From Streptomyces chromofuscus (lineage in GTDB: Bacteria > Actinomycetota > Actinomycetes > Streptomycetales > Streptomycetaceae): DNA of 64,000 nucleotides. Position 1 is the stretch's first letter, and every line of letters starts with the position of its first letter. Location of the stretch: assembly GCF_015160875.1 (NCBI RefSeq), contig NZ_CP063374.1, forward strand, positions 1,860,001 through 1,924,000, given 5' to 3'. Shown here piece by piece: positions 2,345 through 8,569 of the stretch. A program made the translations under genes and the position numbers. The notes beneath the pieces are model-generated. The model did not search any database. It had not been told where the DNA came from and was given only the letters and a program-made list of their open reading frames with translations.

Positions 2345-3868
2345 ATGGCTCATCTGCGTTCCAGACGCCGGCTCGCCCTCGCCGTACCCGTCGTGCTGTC
2401 GCTGACCGCCTCGCTCGGCTTCCTGCCGGCGGCCGCCACGGCCGCCCCGGCCACCGCGTCCGCCGCCCAGTCGGCGGACGCCCCGAAGCTGGCGTACGTG
2501 GTCAACACCGCGACGGACGGCCGCACGATCGCCTCGGTGCAGCGGGCGATCGCCGCGGCCGGCGGCACCGTGGTGATCACGTACGACACGATCGGCGTGA
2601 TCGTCGCGCACTCGGCGAACCCGGACTTCGGCGCGCAGATACGTACCGTCCGCGGCGTGCAGTCGGCGGGCGCCACCCGCACCGCTCCCCTGGTCTCGGC
2701 GGGCACGACCGACCAGGGCGCGGCCGACTACCTGACCGCCGCCGAGGCGGCGAAGGTCGAGGCCGCCGCCACCGCCGGGAGCGAGCCCCTCGAGGCCGAC
2801 CAGTGGGACCTGCGGGCGATCGGCGCCGACAAGGCCGCGCAGATCAACCCGGGCAGCCGCAAGGTCACCGTCGCGGTGATCGACACCGGCGTCGACGACA
2901 CCCACCCGGACCTCGCCCCGAACTTCTCCGCCGGTCAGTCCGCCAACTGCGTCGGCGGCGTGGCGGACACCAGCGAGGGCGCCTGGCGGCCGTACACCGC
3001 GGACGACTACCACGGCACGCATGTCGCCGGCGAGATCGCGGCGGCCCGCAACGACATCGGCGTGGCCGGCGTGGCGCCGGGCGTGAAGGTCTCCAGCATC
3101 AAGGTGAGCGACCCGTACAACGGGCTGTTCTACCCGGAGAGCGTGGTGTGCGCGTTCGTGTTCGCGGCCGACCACGGCGTCGAGATCACGAACAACAGCT
3201 ACTACGTCGACCCGTGGCTGTACAACTGCATGGACGACCCGGACCAGCGGGCGATCGTGGACGCGGTCAACCGCGCCCAGCTGTACGCCCAGAGCAAGGG
3301 CACCCTGCACCTGGCGTCGGCGGGCAACTCCAACCACGACCTCGACGCCGACGCCATCGTCGACGACAGCAGCCCCGACGACTCCACCCCGGTCGAGCGC
3401 ACCATCGACCCGCACGAGTGCTTCGACGTGCCGACGCAGCTCCCGGGGATCGTCACGGTCAGCGCCACGGGCGTGCAGAACCTCAAGTCGTACTACTCCT
3501 CGTACGGCAAGGGCGTCGTCGACGTCGCGGCGCCGGGCGGCGACCGGCTCTACCAGATCCCGGACACGCCGTCGAAGAACGGCCGCATCCTGTCGACCAT
3601 GCCGAACAACCAGTACGCCTTCCTCCAGGGCACCTCGATGGCCTCGCCGCACGCCGCCGGTGTCGCCGCGCTGCTGAAGTCCGAGCACCCGTGGGCGAGT
3701 CCGCAGGAGCTCCAGCTGCTGCTCAAGGCCCAGGCGGACAGGACGGCCTGCCCGGAGTCGTACGACCAGAACGGTGACGGCACACAGGACGCGGTGTGCG
3801 AGGGCGGTACAAGCGTCAACGGTTTCTACGGACACGGCATCGTCAACGCGCTGCGCGCGGTCCAGTAG
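2345..3868 (+). CDS. Secreted S8 family serine peptidase (subtilase), copy 1
   Basis: A 507-residue exported subtilisin-like protease. It begins with an Arg-rich n-region (residues 4-9), a hydrophobic core and an Ala-rich cleavage zone near residue 40. A propeptide-like region follows (about 48-115, YVVNTATDGRTIASVQRAI). The catalytic domain shows Asp180 in AVIDTGVDDTHPD, His223 in HGTHVAGE, oxyanion Asn283/284 in ITNNSYY and Ser431 in GTSMASPH. The four triad/oxyanion elements are intact, so the enzyme should be active outside the cell. It has a close paralogue immediately downstream on the same strand; the tail DQNGDGTQDAVCEG in both resembles a Ca-binding DxNGDG loop. The ATG at 2345 follows GTGGAGACCCC, which supplies a GGAG Shine-Dalgarno. 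Physiological substrate unknown. Confidence 0.93.
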   Translation: MAHLRSRRRLALAVPVVLSLTASLGFLPAAATAAPATASAAQSADAPKLAYVVNTATDGRTIASVQRAIAAAGGTVVITYDTIGVIVAHSANPDFGAQIRTVRGVQSAGATRTAPLVSAGTTDQGAADYLTAAEAAKVEAAATAGSEPLEADQWDLRAIGADKAAQINPGSRKVTVAVIDTGVDDTHPDLAPNFSAGQSANCVGGVADTSEGAWRPYTADDYHGTHVAGEIAAARNDIGVAGVAPGVKVSSIKVSDPYNGLFYPESVVCAFVFAADHGVEITNNSYYVDPWLYNCMDDPDQRAIVDAVNRAQLYAQSKGTLHLASAGNSNHDLDADAIVDDSSPDDSTPVERTIDPHECFDVPTQLPGIVTVSATGVQNLKSYYSSYGKGVVDVAAPGGDRLYQIPDTPSKNGRILSTMPNNQYAFLQGTSMASPHAAGVAALLKSEHPWASPQELQLLLKAQADRTACPESYDQNGDGTQDAVCEGGTSVNGFYGHGIVNALRAVQ

Positions 3869-3898
3869 TCGCTCGGGCCGCGGCGCGGCCGGACCTTC

Positions 3899-3955
3899 GG
3901 CCGCCGCCCGCCGCCCGCCGCCCGCCGCCCGCCGCCCGCCGCCCGCCGCCCGCCC
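3899..3955. repeat. Heptanucleotide tandem repeat CCCGCCG between the two subtilase genes
   Basis: Six exact copies of CCCGCCG (3907-3948) are flanked by partial copies on both sides. The opposite strand has regularly spaced GGG runs separated by CGGC, so it could fold as a G-quadruplex. The array sits about 65 bases before the start of the second subtilase gene and could affect its expression; copy number is likely to vary between strains. Confidence 0.85.
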
Positions 3956-4019
3956 CATGAACTCCCGCACGGTCCGCCGCGTACCACCCGTACCGCGAAC
4001 GAACTGGAGACACGCACCC

Positions 4020-5537
4020 ATGACAGTGCCTCAGCCCCGCCACCGCCGTGCCCTGGTGATCCCGGTCGGGATGACCATGGCGACCGCCCTGGCGTTCCTG
4101 CCGAACGCCACGGCGTCGGCGGCGCAGCCCGCCGCCCAGGTGGCCGCCGACGCGACCTCGCTCAGCTACGTCGTCAACGTGCACCCCGGACAGGGCGCCC
4201 CCGCGCATGTGAAGAAGGCGATCACCGAGGCCGGCGGCACGATCGTCATGTCGTACGACCAGATCGGTGTGATCGTCGTGCACGCGGCGAACGGCGAGTT
4301 CGCGTCGACGATCAGGAAGGTACGAGGGGTCCAGTCGGCGGGCGCCACCCGGACGGCGCCGCTGCCCGCTCAGTCGACCACCGACGTGGGGACGCCGAAG
4401 GTGCTCACGGCCGAGGACCTGGCCGAGGTGGAGGCCGTCGAGGGGCAGGACCCGCTCCAGTCGCTCCAGTGGGACCTGCCGGCGATCAAGGCGGACAAGG
4501 CGCACGAGAAGTCGCTCGGCTCCGATCGGGTGACCGTCGCCGTGATCGACACCGGCGTGGACGACACCCATCCGGACATCGCCCCCAACTTCGATCGCGA
4601 GGCGTCCGTCAACTGCGTCACGGGCAAGCCGGACACCACCGACGGCGCCTGGCGGCCCGGCGCGGCGGAGAGCCCGCACGGCACCCACGTGGCCGGGGAG
4701 ATAGCGGCCGCCAAGAACGGCGTCGGCATGACGGGCGTGGCACCGGGCGTGAAGGTGTCCGGCATCAAGGTGTCGACCACCGCCGGCTACTTCTACACGG
4801 AGGCCGTCGTCTGCGGCTTCGTCTGGGCCGCCGAGCACGGCGTGGACGTCACGAACAACAGCTATTACACCGACCCCTGGTACTTCAACTGCAAGAACGA
4901 CCCGGACCAGAAGGCGCTCGTGGAGGCCATCACCCGGGCGTCGAAGTACGCGGAGAGGAAGGGCGCGGTGAACGTCGCCGCGGCCGGCAACGAGAACTAC
5001 GACCTCGCGGCCGACGAGATCACCGACCCGGTCTCCCCCAACGACTCCACGCCCACCGAGCGGGTGATCGACCCGTCCGAGTGCTACGACATACCGACCC
5101 AGTTGCCGGGCATCGTGACGGTGGCGGCGACCGGCGCGAAGGGCCTGAAGTCGTCCTTCTCCAACCACGGTCTGGGCGTCATCGACATCGCCGCGCCCGG
5201 CGGCGACTCGACGGCGTACCAGAAGCCGGAGCCGCCCGCGACCAGCGGTCTGATCCTGGGCACGCTGCCCGGCGGCAGGTGGGGTTACATGGCGGGTACG
5301 TCGATGGCCTCGCCGCACGTGGCGGGCGTCGCCGCCCTGATCAAGTCGACGCACCCGTACGCCCCGCCCGCCCTGGTGAAGGCCCTGCTGTACGCCGAGG
5401 CGGACGCCACGGCGTGCACGGACCCGTACGACATCAACGGTGACGGCAAGGTCGACGCCGTGTGCGAGGGGCCGAAGAACTACAACGGCTTCTACGGCTG
5501 GGGCACGGCGGACGCGCTGGACGCGGTGACCAAGTAG
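4020..5537 (+). CDS. Secreted S8 family serine peptidase (subtilase), copy 2
   Basis: A 505-residue paralogue of the preceding protease, colinear over its whole length: signal peptide (ending near residue 36, TASAA), propeptide-like segment (about 49-115), and catalytic residues Asp177 (VIDTGVDD), His220 (SPHGTHVAGE), Asn279/280 (VTNNSYY) and Ser428 (GTSMASPH). The C-terminal DINGDGKVDAVCEG loop matches that of copy 1. The ATG at 4020 was preferred to in-frame starts upstream (for example 3957) because it places the signal peptide at the N-terminus and because the leader ACTGGAGAC before it resembles the leader of copy 1. The pair most likely arose by tandem duplication. Both look functional; a strong terminator hairpin follows. 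Confidence 0.93.
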   Translation: MTVPQPRHRRALVIPVGMTMATALAFLPNATASAAQPAAQVAADATSLSYVVNVHPGQGAPAHVKKAITEAGGTIVMSYDQIGVIVVHAANGEFASTIRKVRGVQSAGATRTAPLPAQSTTDVGTPKVLTAEDLAEVEAVEGQDPLQSLQWDLPAIKADKAHEKSLGSDRVTVAVIDTGVDDTHPDIAPNFDREASVNCVTGKPDTTDGAWRPGAAESPHGTHVAGEIAAAKNGVGMTGVAPGVKVSGIKVSTTAGYFYTEAVVCGFVWAAEHGVDVTNNSYYTDPWYFNCKNDPDQKALVEAITRASKYAERKGAVNVAAAGNENYDLAADEITDPVSPNDSTPTERVIDPSECYDIPTQLPGIVTVAATGAKGLKSSFSNHGLGVIDIAAPGGDSTAYQKPEPPATSGLILGTLPGGRWGYMAGTSMASPHVAGVAALIKSTHPYAPPALVKALLYAEADATACTDPYDINGDGKVDAVCEGPKNYNGFYGWGTADALDAVTK

Positions 5538-5614: not shown

Positions 5615-5672
5615 CCGTTCGTGGTCGCGGTGTTCGCCCTCCGCTGACGAGACGTCATGCCGTGCTGCTCGC

Positions 5673-6473
5673 TCACGCGATCGGCGTCGCGCCGGGGCGC
5701 GCCCCGGCGTCCGACGGCCGGAGCGCGCCGTCCGTGGCCCCCGGCGACGGCGGCGTCCGCCGCCCGCCGAGCGTGCCGCGGGTCAGCAGGAACTGCGCGG
5801 CGAGGTACGTGAGCATGATCCACAGGTCCGGCCGGGGCAGCTGCGGCCAGTCGGCCACGCCGGTGGCGATGAGCGTGTCGGAGAGCAGGAACAGCGCGCC
5901 GCCGAGCCCGGCGACGAGACCGAGCCGGGTGAGGGCGCCGTGGGCCATGGCGGCGAGCAGCGCGCTGTAGGCCGCCACGGGGACGCGCAGGTCGGCGGGC
6001 AGGTCGGGCCAGAGCAGGGCGACGGTCGCGGTGAGGGCGGCGGCGTAGCCGAGGGCGACCAGGCCCGCACGCGCGCGTGGAGCTGCCTCCTCGGGGTGCA
6101 CGTCGACGGCCGAGGCGTCAAAGCCCGCACGCGCGCGTGGTGCGGTCTCGCGCCGCCCGTGTGCCCGGAAGAGGGCGAGGTAGCACACGTGTCCCACGGC
6201 GAAGGAGGCCATCCCGGCGAGGAAGGCCGGCTCGGCGTCCGACAGGAGCAGCACGTCCCCGCCCCAGCCGAACAGCAGGGCGACGACGAGCAGCCGGGGC
6301 GCGCCGCGCAGGGCGGCCCAGGTGGCCAGGAGCGGCATCAGGAGCGGCTTGGCGACGGTGTGCCCGGCCTCGAAGCCGGTGGCGAGGGAGGCGAGGTCGA
6401 CGGCGGCGGCGACGCCGAAGGCGGCCAGGACCGCCGGAGCGGCGTCGGCGCGCGGGACGCGGAGGGCGCTCAC
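5673..6473 (-). CDS. Lysoplasmalogenase-like YhhN/TMEM86 family membrane protein
   Basis: A 266-residue, multi-pass membrane protein (about 8 hydrophobic helices) of the YhhN/TMEM86 family. Family landmarks are the early TKPL-like KPLLMPLLA, the FGWGGDVLLL segment, VGHVCYLALF and the late GALFLLSDTLIA. Characterised members hydrolyse the vinyl-ether bond of lysoplasmalogens to an aldehyde and a glycerophospho compound. The GTG at 6473 was chosen because it overlaps the stop of the upstream hydroxylase gene as GTGA, indicating coupled expression. A loop between helices contains two copies of a GC-palindromic repeat and hence the repeated peptide APRARAG, an apparent insertion. Bacterial function is inferred from the family. 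Confidence 0.85.
   Translation of the reverse strand: MSALRVPRADAAPAVLAAFGVAAAVDLASLATGFEAGHTVAKPLLMPLLATWAALRGAPRLLVVALLFGWGGDVLLLSDAEPAFLAGMASFAVGHVCYLALFRAHGRRETAPRARAGFDASAVDVHPEEAAPRARAGLVALGYAAALTATVALLWPDLPADLRVPVAAYSALLAAMAHGALTRLGLVAGLGGALFLLSDTLIATGVADWPQLPRPDLWIMLTYLAAQFLLTRGTLGGRRTPPSPGATDGALRPSDAGARPGATPIA
6063..6140. repeat. Two copies of an 18-bp palindromic element inside the YhhN gene
   Basis: GCCCGCACGCGCGCGTGG occurs at 6063-6080 and again, identically, at 6123-6140, exactly 60 bases apart, so the frame is kept and the protein gains two APRARAG blocks. Each copy contains the 12-bp palindrome CACGCGCGCGTG. A 16-bp relative, TGCACGCGCGCGTGCA, occurs at 19602-19617. Confidence 0.8.
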
Positions 6474-7354
6474 GCGGCCGCGCTCTCCCCGGCCGGTGCC
6501 CGCGGCGGCGCGGGCGACGGCGCCTGCGCCGGCTGCCAGCCCGGCCCGCGGAACAGCCGCCCCGCGCGCTCGCGCCAACCGCGGGCCGCCCTCAGGTCCC
6601 TGGCGATGGAGACGTATTCGTGGGTGGCGACCTTCAGCGGGTTGTACGTGTTGATGTTCTTGGTCAGTCCGTACACCGGCCGCTCGGTCTCGGCGACGAA
6701 GGAGCCGAAGAGGCGGTCCCAGACGATGAGGATCCCGCCGAAGTTGCGGTCAAGGTAGCCGCCTTGGGAGGCGTGGTGGACCCGGTGGTGGGAGGGCGTG
6801 TTGAACACGAACTCGAACCAGCGGGGCATCCTGTCGATCCGCTCGGTGTGGATCCAGAACTGGTAGACGAGGTTCGCGGAGGAGCAGAACGCCAGCGCGG
6901 CCGGGTGCACGCCGAGAGCGATCAGAGGCACGTAGAACGGCCACACGGTCAAGGACGTCCACGGCTGGCGCAGCGCGGTGGTCAGGTTGAACTTCTCACT
7001 CGAGTGGTGGACCACGTGACAGGCCCACAGGATGCGGACGACGTGGTGTCCCCGGTGCGACCAGTAGTAGAAGAAGTCCTGCGCGAGCAGCATCGGCAGG
7101 ACGGTCCACCACAGCACGGGCACACGCAGCGGCGTCAGCTCGTAGACCGCCGTGTAGATGGCGACGACCGGGATCTTCCACAGCAGGTCGAAGAAGAGGC
7201 TGCCGAGTCCCATGGTGACGCTCGTGGCGGCGTCCTTGGCCTCGTAGCCGGCCGCGTCCTCGTCCGGGTGGAGACGGACGCTGATCATCTCGATGACGGC
7301 GAGCAGCACGAAGGCCGGTATGGACCAGACCACGACATTGGGGAGGTTCGGCAT
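6470..7354 (-). CDS. Alkylglycerol monooxygenase-like membrane di-iron hydroxylase (sterol desaturase superfamily)
   Basis: A 294-residue member of the fatty-acid hydroxylase/sterol desaturase superfamily. It has N-terminal membrane helices and the eight-His di-iron motif in order: WSHRGHH, then CHVVHHSSEKFNLTTALRQ, then NTPSHHRVHH. The segments HHSSEKFNLTTALRQ, YQFWIHTERI and DRNFGGILIVWDRLFGSF closely resemble animal alkylglycerol monooxygenase (AGMO/TMEM195), which opens the O-alkyl bond of ether lipids with tetrahydrobiopterin; this comparison is from memory. The ATG at 7354 was chosen for its position at the first hydrophobic helix. The stop overlaps the start of the lysoplasmalogenase gene. 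Substrate and cofactor in this organism are unknown; a sterol or hopanoid substrate is possible but less supported by the motifs. Confidence 0.85.
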   Translation of the reverse strand: MPNLPNVVVWSIPAFVLLAVIEMISVRLHPDEDAAGYEAKDAATSVTMGLGSLFFDLLWKIPVVAIYTAVYELTPLRVPVLWWTVLPMLLAQDFFYYWSHRGHHVVRILWACHVVHHSSEKFNLTTALRQPWTSLTVWPFYVPLIALGVHPAALAFCSSANLVYQFWIHTERIDRMPRWFEFVFNTPSHHRVHHASQGGYLDRNFGGILIVWDRLFGSFVAETERPVYGLTKNINTYNPLKVATHEYVSIARDLRAARGWRERAGRLFRGPGWQPAQAPSPAPPRAPAGESAAA

Positions 7355-7396
7355 GGGTGCACCGTAGGACCCCCACACCGCCAGGGCTAGGGGTTG

Positions 7397-7410
7397 TTAC
7401 CGACAAGTAT
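7397..7410. promoter_or_regulatory. TTAC-N6-GTAT imperfect palindrome in the divergent promoter
   Basis: TTACCGACAAGTAT lies in the most AT-rich part of the 213-base gap between the hydroxylase (minus) and the exonuclease (plus), 43 bases before the hydroxylase start. TTAC-N6-GTAA type sites are bound by several TetR-like regulators of lipid genes. The match is one base short of symmetric, so this is tentative. Confidence 0.3.
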
Positions 7411-7567
7411 TACCGTGGGTACGCGCTTGCTTGTTGGCGATCTCCGCCAATGGCGCGCACCTGACCGGCCGTCACGCCCGCGGGGGTGGGGCGTCTCGCG
7501 AACGGCCGGGCGGGGCAGGAGACCTGACGGGCAGCGGTGTCGGTGCCGGCCCGTATCCTCAGTGACC

Positions 7568-8569
7568 ATGCTCGAAGACCGTACGACCGCAGCGCCCTCC
7601 CCGACAGTCTGGCCGGCCGCGTATCCGCGTGGATACGCGGTCGTTGACGTGGAGACCACGGGCCTGGCCCGGGACGACCGGATCATCTCCGCGGCGGTCT
7701 ACCGGCTGGACGGACGCGGTGAGGTCGAGGACCACTGGTACACGCTGGTGAATCCGGAGCGCGACCCGGGGCCGGTGTGGATCCACGGCCTGACGAGCGA
7801 GGCGCTCGAAGGGGCGCCGCTCTTCGCCGACGTCGCGGAGGAGTTCGCGACCCGGCTGGAGGGCCGGGTGCTCGTCGCGCACAACGCGGTGTTCGACTGG
7901 CAGATGATCGCCCGTGAGTACGCGCGCGTGCGGCGCGAGGCGCCGGTGCGTCAGCGGCTGTGCACCATCGCCCTGTCCAAGGCGCTGGAACTGCCGCTGC
8001 CCAACCACAAGCTGGAGTCGCTGGCCGCCCACTTCGGCGTCGTCCAGCGGCGGGCGCACCACGCGCTGGACGACGCGCGCGTGCTGGCGGAGGCGTTCCG
8101 GCCGAGCCTGCGGGCCGCGGCCGAGGGGTGCCTGCGGCTGCCGCTGCACGAGTGCCGGCCGCTGACCGAGTGGGTGGAGCGGCCCGCGGCCCGGATCGGG
8201 CAGCAGCCGGGCGGACACGGCGGTTACAGCGGCTACCGCCCGGGCGGTTGGCGTCCGTCGCGCAAGCGGCCCGCCTGCCCGTACCCCAACCCGGGGCGGT
8301 ACGAAGAGGGCAAACGCCTCAAGCAGGGCATGCGGATCGCCTTCTCCGGGGACACCTCCGTCGAACGCGAGCTGCTGGAGGACCGCGCCGTCGAGGCCGG
8401 TCTGCATGTCGCGACGAGCCTGTCCCGGCTGACGAGCCTGCTCGTCACGAACGACCCGGACTCGGGCACCTCGAAGGTCGTCAAGGCCCGGCAGTACGGC
8501 ACGCCGGTGGTCGACGAGGCGGCCTTCGGGCAGCTCCTGGGGGATGTGGAACCGGCGTCGGAGGCGTGA
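7568..8569 (+). CDS. DnaQ-like 3'-5' exonuclease with C-terminal BRCT domain
   Basis: A 333-residue protein. Residues about 20-185 form a DEDDh exonuclease domain: Exo I VVDVETTGL (Asp and Glu ligands), Exo II HNAVFDWQM, and Exo III HHALDDARVL with the DEDDh histidine and last Asp. After a Gly/Arg-rich linker, residues about 255-330 resemble a BRCT domain (MRIAFSGDTSVERELLEDRAVEAG split around the FSG core, and a LVTNDP segment), like those fused to exonucleases and ligases. Probable role: DNA proofreading or repair-associated 3' end trimming. Start is either the ATG at 7568 or the GTG two codons earlier. No polymerase domain is present, so this is not a polC-type subunit. Confidence 0.87.
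   Translation: MLEDRTTAAPSPTVWPAAYPRGYAVVDVETTGLARDDRIISAAVYRLDGRGEVEDHWYTLVNPERDPGPVWIHGLTSEALEGAPLFADVAEEFATRLEGRVLVAHNAVFDWQMIAREYARVRREAPVRQRLCTIALSKALELPLPNHKLESLAAHFGVVQRRAHHALDDARVLAEAFRPSLRAAAEGCLRLPLHECRPLTEWVERPAARIGQQPGGHGGYSGYRPGGWRPSRKRPACPYPNPGRYEEGKRLKQGMRIAFSGDTSVERELLEDRAVEAGLHVATSLSRLTSLLVTNDPDSGTSKVVKARQYGTPVVDEAAFGQLLGDVEPASEA

Follow-up and report, generated by a model that had tools for sequence, protein, structure and literature searches.

A conserved Streptomyces gene pair encoding an AGMO-like hydroxylase and a lysoplasmalogenase-family protein, with an operator also found at beta-oxidation genes

The closest described relative of the first protein considered here is animal alkylglycerol monooxygenase (AGMO; TMEM195, EC 1.14.16.5), a tetrahydropterin-dependent enzyme that splits alkyl-ether lipids and in humans has 445 amino acids and nine transmembrane segments. 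Mutagenesis of the human enzyme showed that nine histidines and the residues Q162, D233, N235, Y236, W243 and D244 are essential, and that E137, described as peculiar to AGMO, is required for binding of tetrahydrobiopterin (BH4) (PMC7911779, PMC3617469). A Y236A substitution kills the enzyme, and no result for Y236F is given in the available text of these papers (PMC7911779, PMC3617469). The E137A substitution raises the Km 18-fold but does not abolish activity, and tetrahydrofolate is a weak support for the activity of animal AGMO (PMC3617469). Bacterial AGMO-like proteins are widespread. The open-access papers searched yielded no assigned function for any of them and no report of the gene pair described below.

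The second protein belongs to the YhhN family, whose human, Legionella and Mycobacterium tuberculosis members are lysoplasmalogenases; M. tuberculosis itself lacks plasmalogens (PMC9052158). Eight residues have been proposed as catalytic in TMEM86A/B, and mutation of seven of these affected activity (PMC11994398). A third point of comparison is regulatory: the promoter of the SCO6027-SCO6026 operon (fadAB_1) of Streptomyces coelicolor is induced by oleate (PMC5539140).

The window analysed is a stretch of 64,000 nucleotides of the Streptomyces chromofuscus genome (GCF_015160875.1, contig NZ_CP063374.1, positions 1,860,001–1,924,000), and coordinates below are counted from its first base. A preliminary description had placed two coupled minus-strand genes here, one for an AGMO-like hydroxylase and one for a TMEM86/YhhN protein, under one promoter with a lipid-type operator candidate, and had suggested that both act on ether lipids. 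Both ORFs, their coordinates and their four-base overlap were verified in the sequence. The features of the locus are:

7354..6470, minus strand: AGMO-like FA_hydroxylase (di-iron membrane hydroxylase), 294 aa, PF04116, first gene of the predicted operon
6473..5673, minus strand: YhhN/TMEM86-family lysoplasmalogenase-like membrane protein, 266 aa, PF07947, second gene
6470..6473, minus strand: GTGA stop/start overlap joining the two genes
7396..7409, minus strand: predicted operator TACTTGTCGGTAAC, an imperfect palindrome that lies 55 bp before the start codon of the hydroxylase
7434..7450, plus strand: inverted repeat TTGGCG-ATCTC-CGCCAA in the space separating the divergent genes, kept in 20 of the 39 upstream regions compared among orthologues
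7568..8569, plus strand: divergent neighbour, an exonuclease with Pfam RNase_T and BRCT domains

Within the GTGA overlap, the TGA stop codon of the hydroxylase gene shares bases with the GTG start codon of the YhhN gene. This arrangement supports a translationally coupled two-gene operon that is conserved in Streptomyces. The divergent exonuclease is probably not part of an ether-lipid module. The inverted repeat in front of it is perfect, with a 5-nt spacer, and could be a site for another regulator or for the exonuclease gene.

An orthologue of the hydroxylase is present in 79 of 121 Streptomyces genomes, and in 69 of these 79 a YhhN gene lies within 2.5 kb, so that the pair is conserved as neighbours. 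The co-occurrence of the two genes in the genus has a Fisher p-value of 1.7e-17, which is indicative only, because the genomes are related and not independent. Outside Streptomyces, 14 genera have both genes against 4.5 expected, though the genes are mostly unlinked there, and in most actinobacteria that have both, such as mycobacteria, they are not neighbours. Linked pairs were found within the same clade of hydroxylases (the window clade) in Nonomuraea and Streptacidiphilus. The linkage also recurs in a second AGMO clade that is separate in the tree, in Micromonospora and other Streptomyces (L074–L078, L032, L033). The gene order in this second clade is a GntR/FCD regulator, the AGMO-like gene and YhhN, with the regulator confirmed by Pfam in three loci (L033, L074, L077). 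The operator of the window is absent from these pairs, and the GntR/FCD gene is found there instead.

Some genomes depart from this arrangement. In Streptomyces genome G076 (L065, about 5650–5770) the hydroxylase gene has been almost completely deleted, with its promoter, operator and start codon still in place, as is the GTGA at which YhhN begins. Since YhhN is kept there under the same promoter without the hydroxylase, the two proteins can act apart. In G069 (L215) the operator beside the exonuclease gene is kept and the hydroxylase gene is reduced to a short remnant. A fused hydroxylase–YhhN ORF in Streptomyces sp. DHE7-1 (L078) was rejected as a true fusion: the frame shifts near the end of the hydroxylase while the usual stop and start are kept, which indicates a frameshift or sequencing artefact. 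In Mycobacterium pinniadriaticum (L124, 2264–4870) a carboxylesterase gene is followed by an AGMO-like gene, and TACCCGTCGGTAAC stands directly before the carboxylesterase gene.

The hydroxylase matches Pfam FA_hydroxylase with 101.3 bits (cut-off 31), and no domains other than FA_hydroxylase and YhhN were found in the two proteins with Pfam at E <= 0.001. Its residues were matched to those of human AGMO by means of conserved motifs and the positions given in the literature, with one additional residue admitted after H169. The eight-histidine motif of the FA_hydroxylases and the ninth histidine (human H201) are all kept, as H100, H104, H113, H116, H117, H169, H190, H193 and H194. Five of the six further essential residues are also kept (Q130, D202, N204, W212 and D213, corresponding to human Q162, D233, N235, W243 and D244), and the sixth, Y236, is F205; phenylalanine occupies this position in nearly all orthologues of the window clade. 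The position of E137 is V105, with valine in almost all Streptomyces orthologues and never glutamate in the window clade. The protein stops after its GPGW segment and lacks the C-terminal membrane region found in animal AGMO. Thus the metal ligands and flanking motifs cited in favour of AGMO are present, and the pterin residue specific to AGMO is not.

Fourteen FA_hydroxylase paralogues from related actinobacteria have neither Q162 nor the HHSSxxxNLSTALRQ signature, which places the window protein in the AGMO-type branch rather than in another branch of the FA_hydroxylases. In an NCBIfam search the sole match was OlsE, an ornithine-lipid hydroxylase of the same superfamily, at 49.6 bits against a cut-off of 475; no desaturase or carotene-hydroxylase model, either of which would have spoken for a different enzyme, scored better. 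The AlphaFold2 model has a mean pLDDT of 92, and neither a sequence search of the PDB nor a fold search with two models gave a significant relative. A tree built from 63 sequences of five phyla shows E137 in scattered places, in Acidobacteriota, Pseudomonadota, Myxococcota, Bacteroidota and part of the Actinomycetota. This glutamate is missing throughout the window clade, which consists of Streptomycetaceae, Nonomuraea and some Micromonosporaceae (support 100/99). The simplest reading, in a tree whose root is not fixed, is that an ancestral glutamate was lost in the window clade. The AGMO assignment is thus supported at the level of the subfamily only: while the nine histidines, Q162, D233, N235, W243, D244, the surrounding motifs and the Pfam family are those of animal AGMO, the window protein is shorter, is encoded in a bacterial operon and has valine and phenylalanine for E137 and Y236. 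Because of these two replacements and the missing C-terminal membrane part, it is by its residues an AGMO-like protein and not AGMO.

The placement of the second protein in the TMEM86/YhhN family was borne out by a match to PF07947 of 120.6 bits (cut-off 25.6). All eight candidate catalytic residues are kept, with K42, G72, D73, H95, G191, S198, D199 and Y223 corresponding by motif and spacing to TMEM86A K43, G81, D82, H104, G182, S189, D190 and Y213. The protein has these residues and its Pfam family in common with human TMEM86A/B, Legionella Lpg1991 and M. tuberculosis Rv1401, and differs from them in its operon partner, in the beta-oxidation operator and in a strain-specific loop insertion. 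Since family members have lysoplasmalogenase activity, including that of M. tuberculosis, the window protein is likely to have it as well.

The operator had been placed one base away, at 7397–7410, and its suspected tie to lipid metabolism can now be made specific. ATACTTGTCGGTAACAAC or a close variant is found upstream of most hydroxylase orthologues: the core is perfect in 46 of the 79, at 55–68 bp before the start codon, and 32 of the 39 upstream regions compared among orthologues have the operator with at most one mismatch. This conserved upstream operator and the adjacency of the genes bear out a shared promoter and a conserved pairing. The core, TACTNGTNGGTAAC, has two perfect copies in the 7.48-Mb genome, while a reversed control pattern has none. 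The other copy stands in front of a thiolase gene, the orthologue of SCO6027 (fadAB); the start of this protein, MPRTVR, agrees with the S. coelicolor SCO6027 cloning primer (PMC5539140). The oleate-induced fadAB_1 operon of S. coelicolor thus has an orthologue with the same operator core in S. chromofuscus, although, unlike the window operon, it is a core fatty-acid-oxidation operon without ether-lipid enzymes.

Across the 121 Streptomyces genomes there are 131 core sites, compared to 7 for the reversed pattern. The 71 site loci examined lie at genes for DUF4442 hotdog/thioesterase-like proteins (15), AGMO-like proteins (14), the acyl-CoA synthetase FadD (13), FadA (12) and TetR regulators of the TetR_C_32 type (5), and at 12 others that include EtfB, enoyl-CoA hydratase, an acyl-CoA thioesterase and a MIP-family channel. 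In the S. chromofuscus genome, the DUF4442 gene is preceded by a copy with one mismatch, and a copy with two mismatches separates the gene of the TetR_C_32-type regulator from that of an acyl-CoA dehydrogenase, which points the opposite way. Two-mismatch sites in this genome are near background (157 versus 126), so only sites backed by perfect sites at orthologues were used. Because the operator is common to beta-oxidation genes (fadA, fadD, thioesterases, EtfB, enoyl-CoA hydratase, TetR), membership of the hydroxylase/YhhN operon in a beta-oxidation regulon is a well-supported in silico prediction.

The sites at its own gene suggest that the TetR_C_32 regulator is the protein that binds the predicted operator. 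The TetR gene divergent from the acyl-CoA dehydrogenase is at G000:C1:1168459 (L248); its product is FasR-like, with 86.6 bits against mycobacterial FasR, below the cut-off of 330. A paralogue at G000:C1:5244112 (L227) has a one-mismatch site of its own. Both are candidates for regulating the degradation of fatty acids in Streptomyces.

The explanation we favour, at close to even probability, is that the operon scavenges and cleaves ether-linked (lyso)lipids and that the resulting fatty aldehydes enter beta-oxidation; the substrate of the hydroxylase is an inferred part of it. The histidine-ligated di-iron centre of the hydroxylase would hydroxylate the alkyl carbon beside the ether oxygen, and the product would break into a fatty aldehyde and the glycerol head. 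YhhN would hydrolyse the vinyl-ether bond of lysoplasmalogens, again giving a fatty aldehyde. Oxidation of these aldehydes would yield fatty acids, which FadD would activate and FadE and FadAB would break down. The FasR-like TetR, probably sensing acyl-CoA, would bind TACTNGTNGGTAAC over the operon promoter, and its release would switch on the operon along with the beta-oxidation genes. A more far-reaching version is tentative: that a BH4-independent bacterial O-alkyl ether monooxygenase and a lysoplasmalogenase in one operon, co-induced with beta-oxidation, amount to a complete aerobic pathway of ether-lipid catabolism in streptomycetes.

The strongest alternative, which we consider possible but somewhat doubtful, is that the substrate of the hydroxylase is some other lipid (a fatty acyl chain, a lysolipid or another lipid of the membrane), that the enzyme serves the catabolism of fatty acids or the adaptation of membranes, and that YhhN clears toxic lysolipids, so that ether bonds are not the common theme. 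FA_hydroxylase enzymes are diverse, almost all members of the window clade have other residues in place of the pterin residue and Y236 of AGMO, the regulon is one of general beta-oxidation and not specific to ethers, and OlsE, the one bacterial relative that NCBIfam has curated, scores far below its cut-off. Against this, the AGMO-essential Q162, D233 and N235 are kept while other FA_hydroxylase paralogues are without Q162, and the family with which the hydroxylase is repeatedly paired is known to cleave ether lipids.

Another possibility, improbable on present evidence, keeps the ether substrate and differs in the cofactor. The protein would be a true tetrahydropterin-dependent bacterial AGMO in spite of the missing glutamate, perhaps using tetrahydrofolate or tetrahydromonapterin recycled by pterin-4a-carbinolamine dehydratase. 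A gene of the Pterin_4a family, that of this dehydratase, is indeed in the genome, and human E137A stays active at a raised Km, with tetrahydrofolate working weakly in the animal enzyme. However, valine stands at the E137 position in almost all Streptomyces orthologues, with residues other than glutamate across the clade, and no BH4 route is evident. The genome has two genes of the PTPS family. One adjoins QueE, of the 7-deazaguanine route, and the other, tried as a sign of BH4 synthesis and rejected, is a weak QueD/PTPS match; no PTPS of the BH4 type was recognised in the genome. The preliminary description had proposed looking for a pterin cofactor, and the replaced E137 and Y236, the missing C-terminal membrane part and the PTPS genes all speak against one. 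Because E137 is valine and no BH4-type PTPS was recognised, a non-pterin reductant for the hydroxylase is likelier.

The ether lipids could in principle be made by the strain itself, with the operon recycling endogenous plasmanyl or plasmenyl lipids. In animals, such lipids are substrates of both protein families, but this reading is very unlikely: the plasmalogen desaturase PEDS1/CarF (PF10520) is absent from the S. chromofuscus genome and the other Streptomyces listed, compared to matches in 11 other actinobacterial genomes, and no Streptomyces plasmalogen pathway was found in the open-access literature. Since no such desaturase was found in the genome, the substrates are probably exogenous, and ether lipids of other soil organisms are the natural guess. 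Finally, that the genes are chance neighbours is hardly credible: although they are unlinked in mycobacteria and most other actinobacteria, they are linked in 69 of 79 cases in the genus, overlap in reading frame, recur as a pair in a second clade and have a single promoter.

A conserved operon with a control site of fatty-acid degradation suggests a little-studied way of bacterial feeding on ether lipids. It offers a concrete hypothesis for aerobic ether-lipid catabolism, with a predicted operator and regulator and with long-chain fatty acids or their CoA esters as the predicted inducer. The natural variation at E137 lets one ask whether cleavage of ether bonds requires a pterin, and the operon may explain why YhhN lysoplasmalogenases are kept by bacteria without plasmalogens.

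Two further features were seen in and beside the YhhN gene. A 17-bp repeat, CCCGCACGCGCGCGTGG, occurs in it twice, 60 bp apart (6064–6080 and 6124–6140), and the two copies frame an inserted loop of some 20 residues that most relatives lack. Downstream of the gene pair, at 2345–5537, there are two similar tandem plus-strand ORFs with S8-type subtilase motifs.
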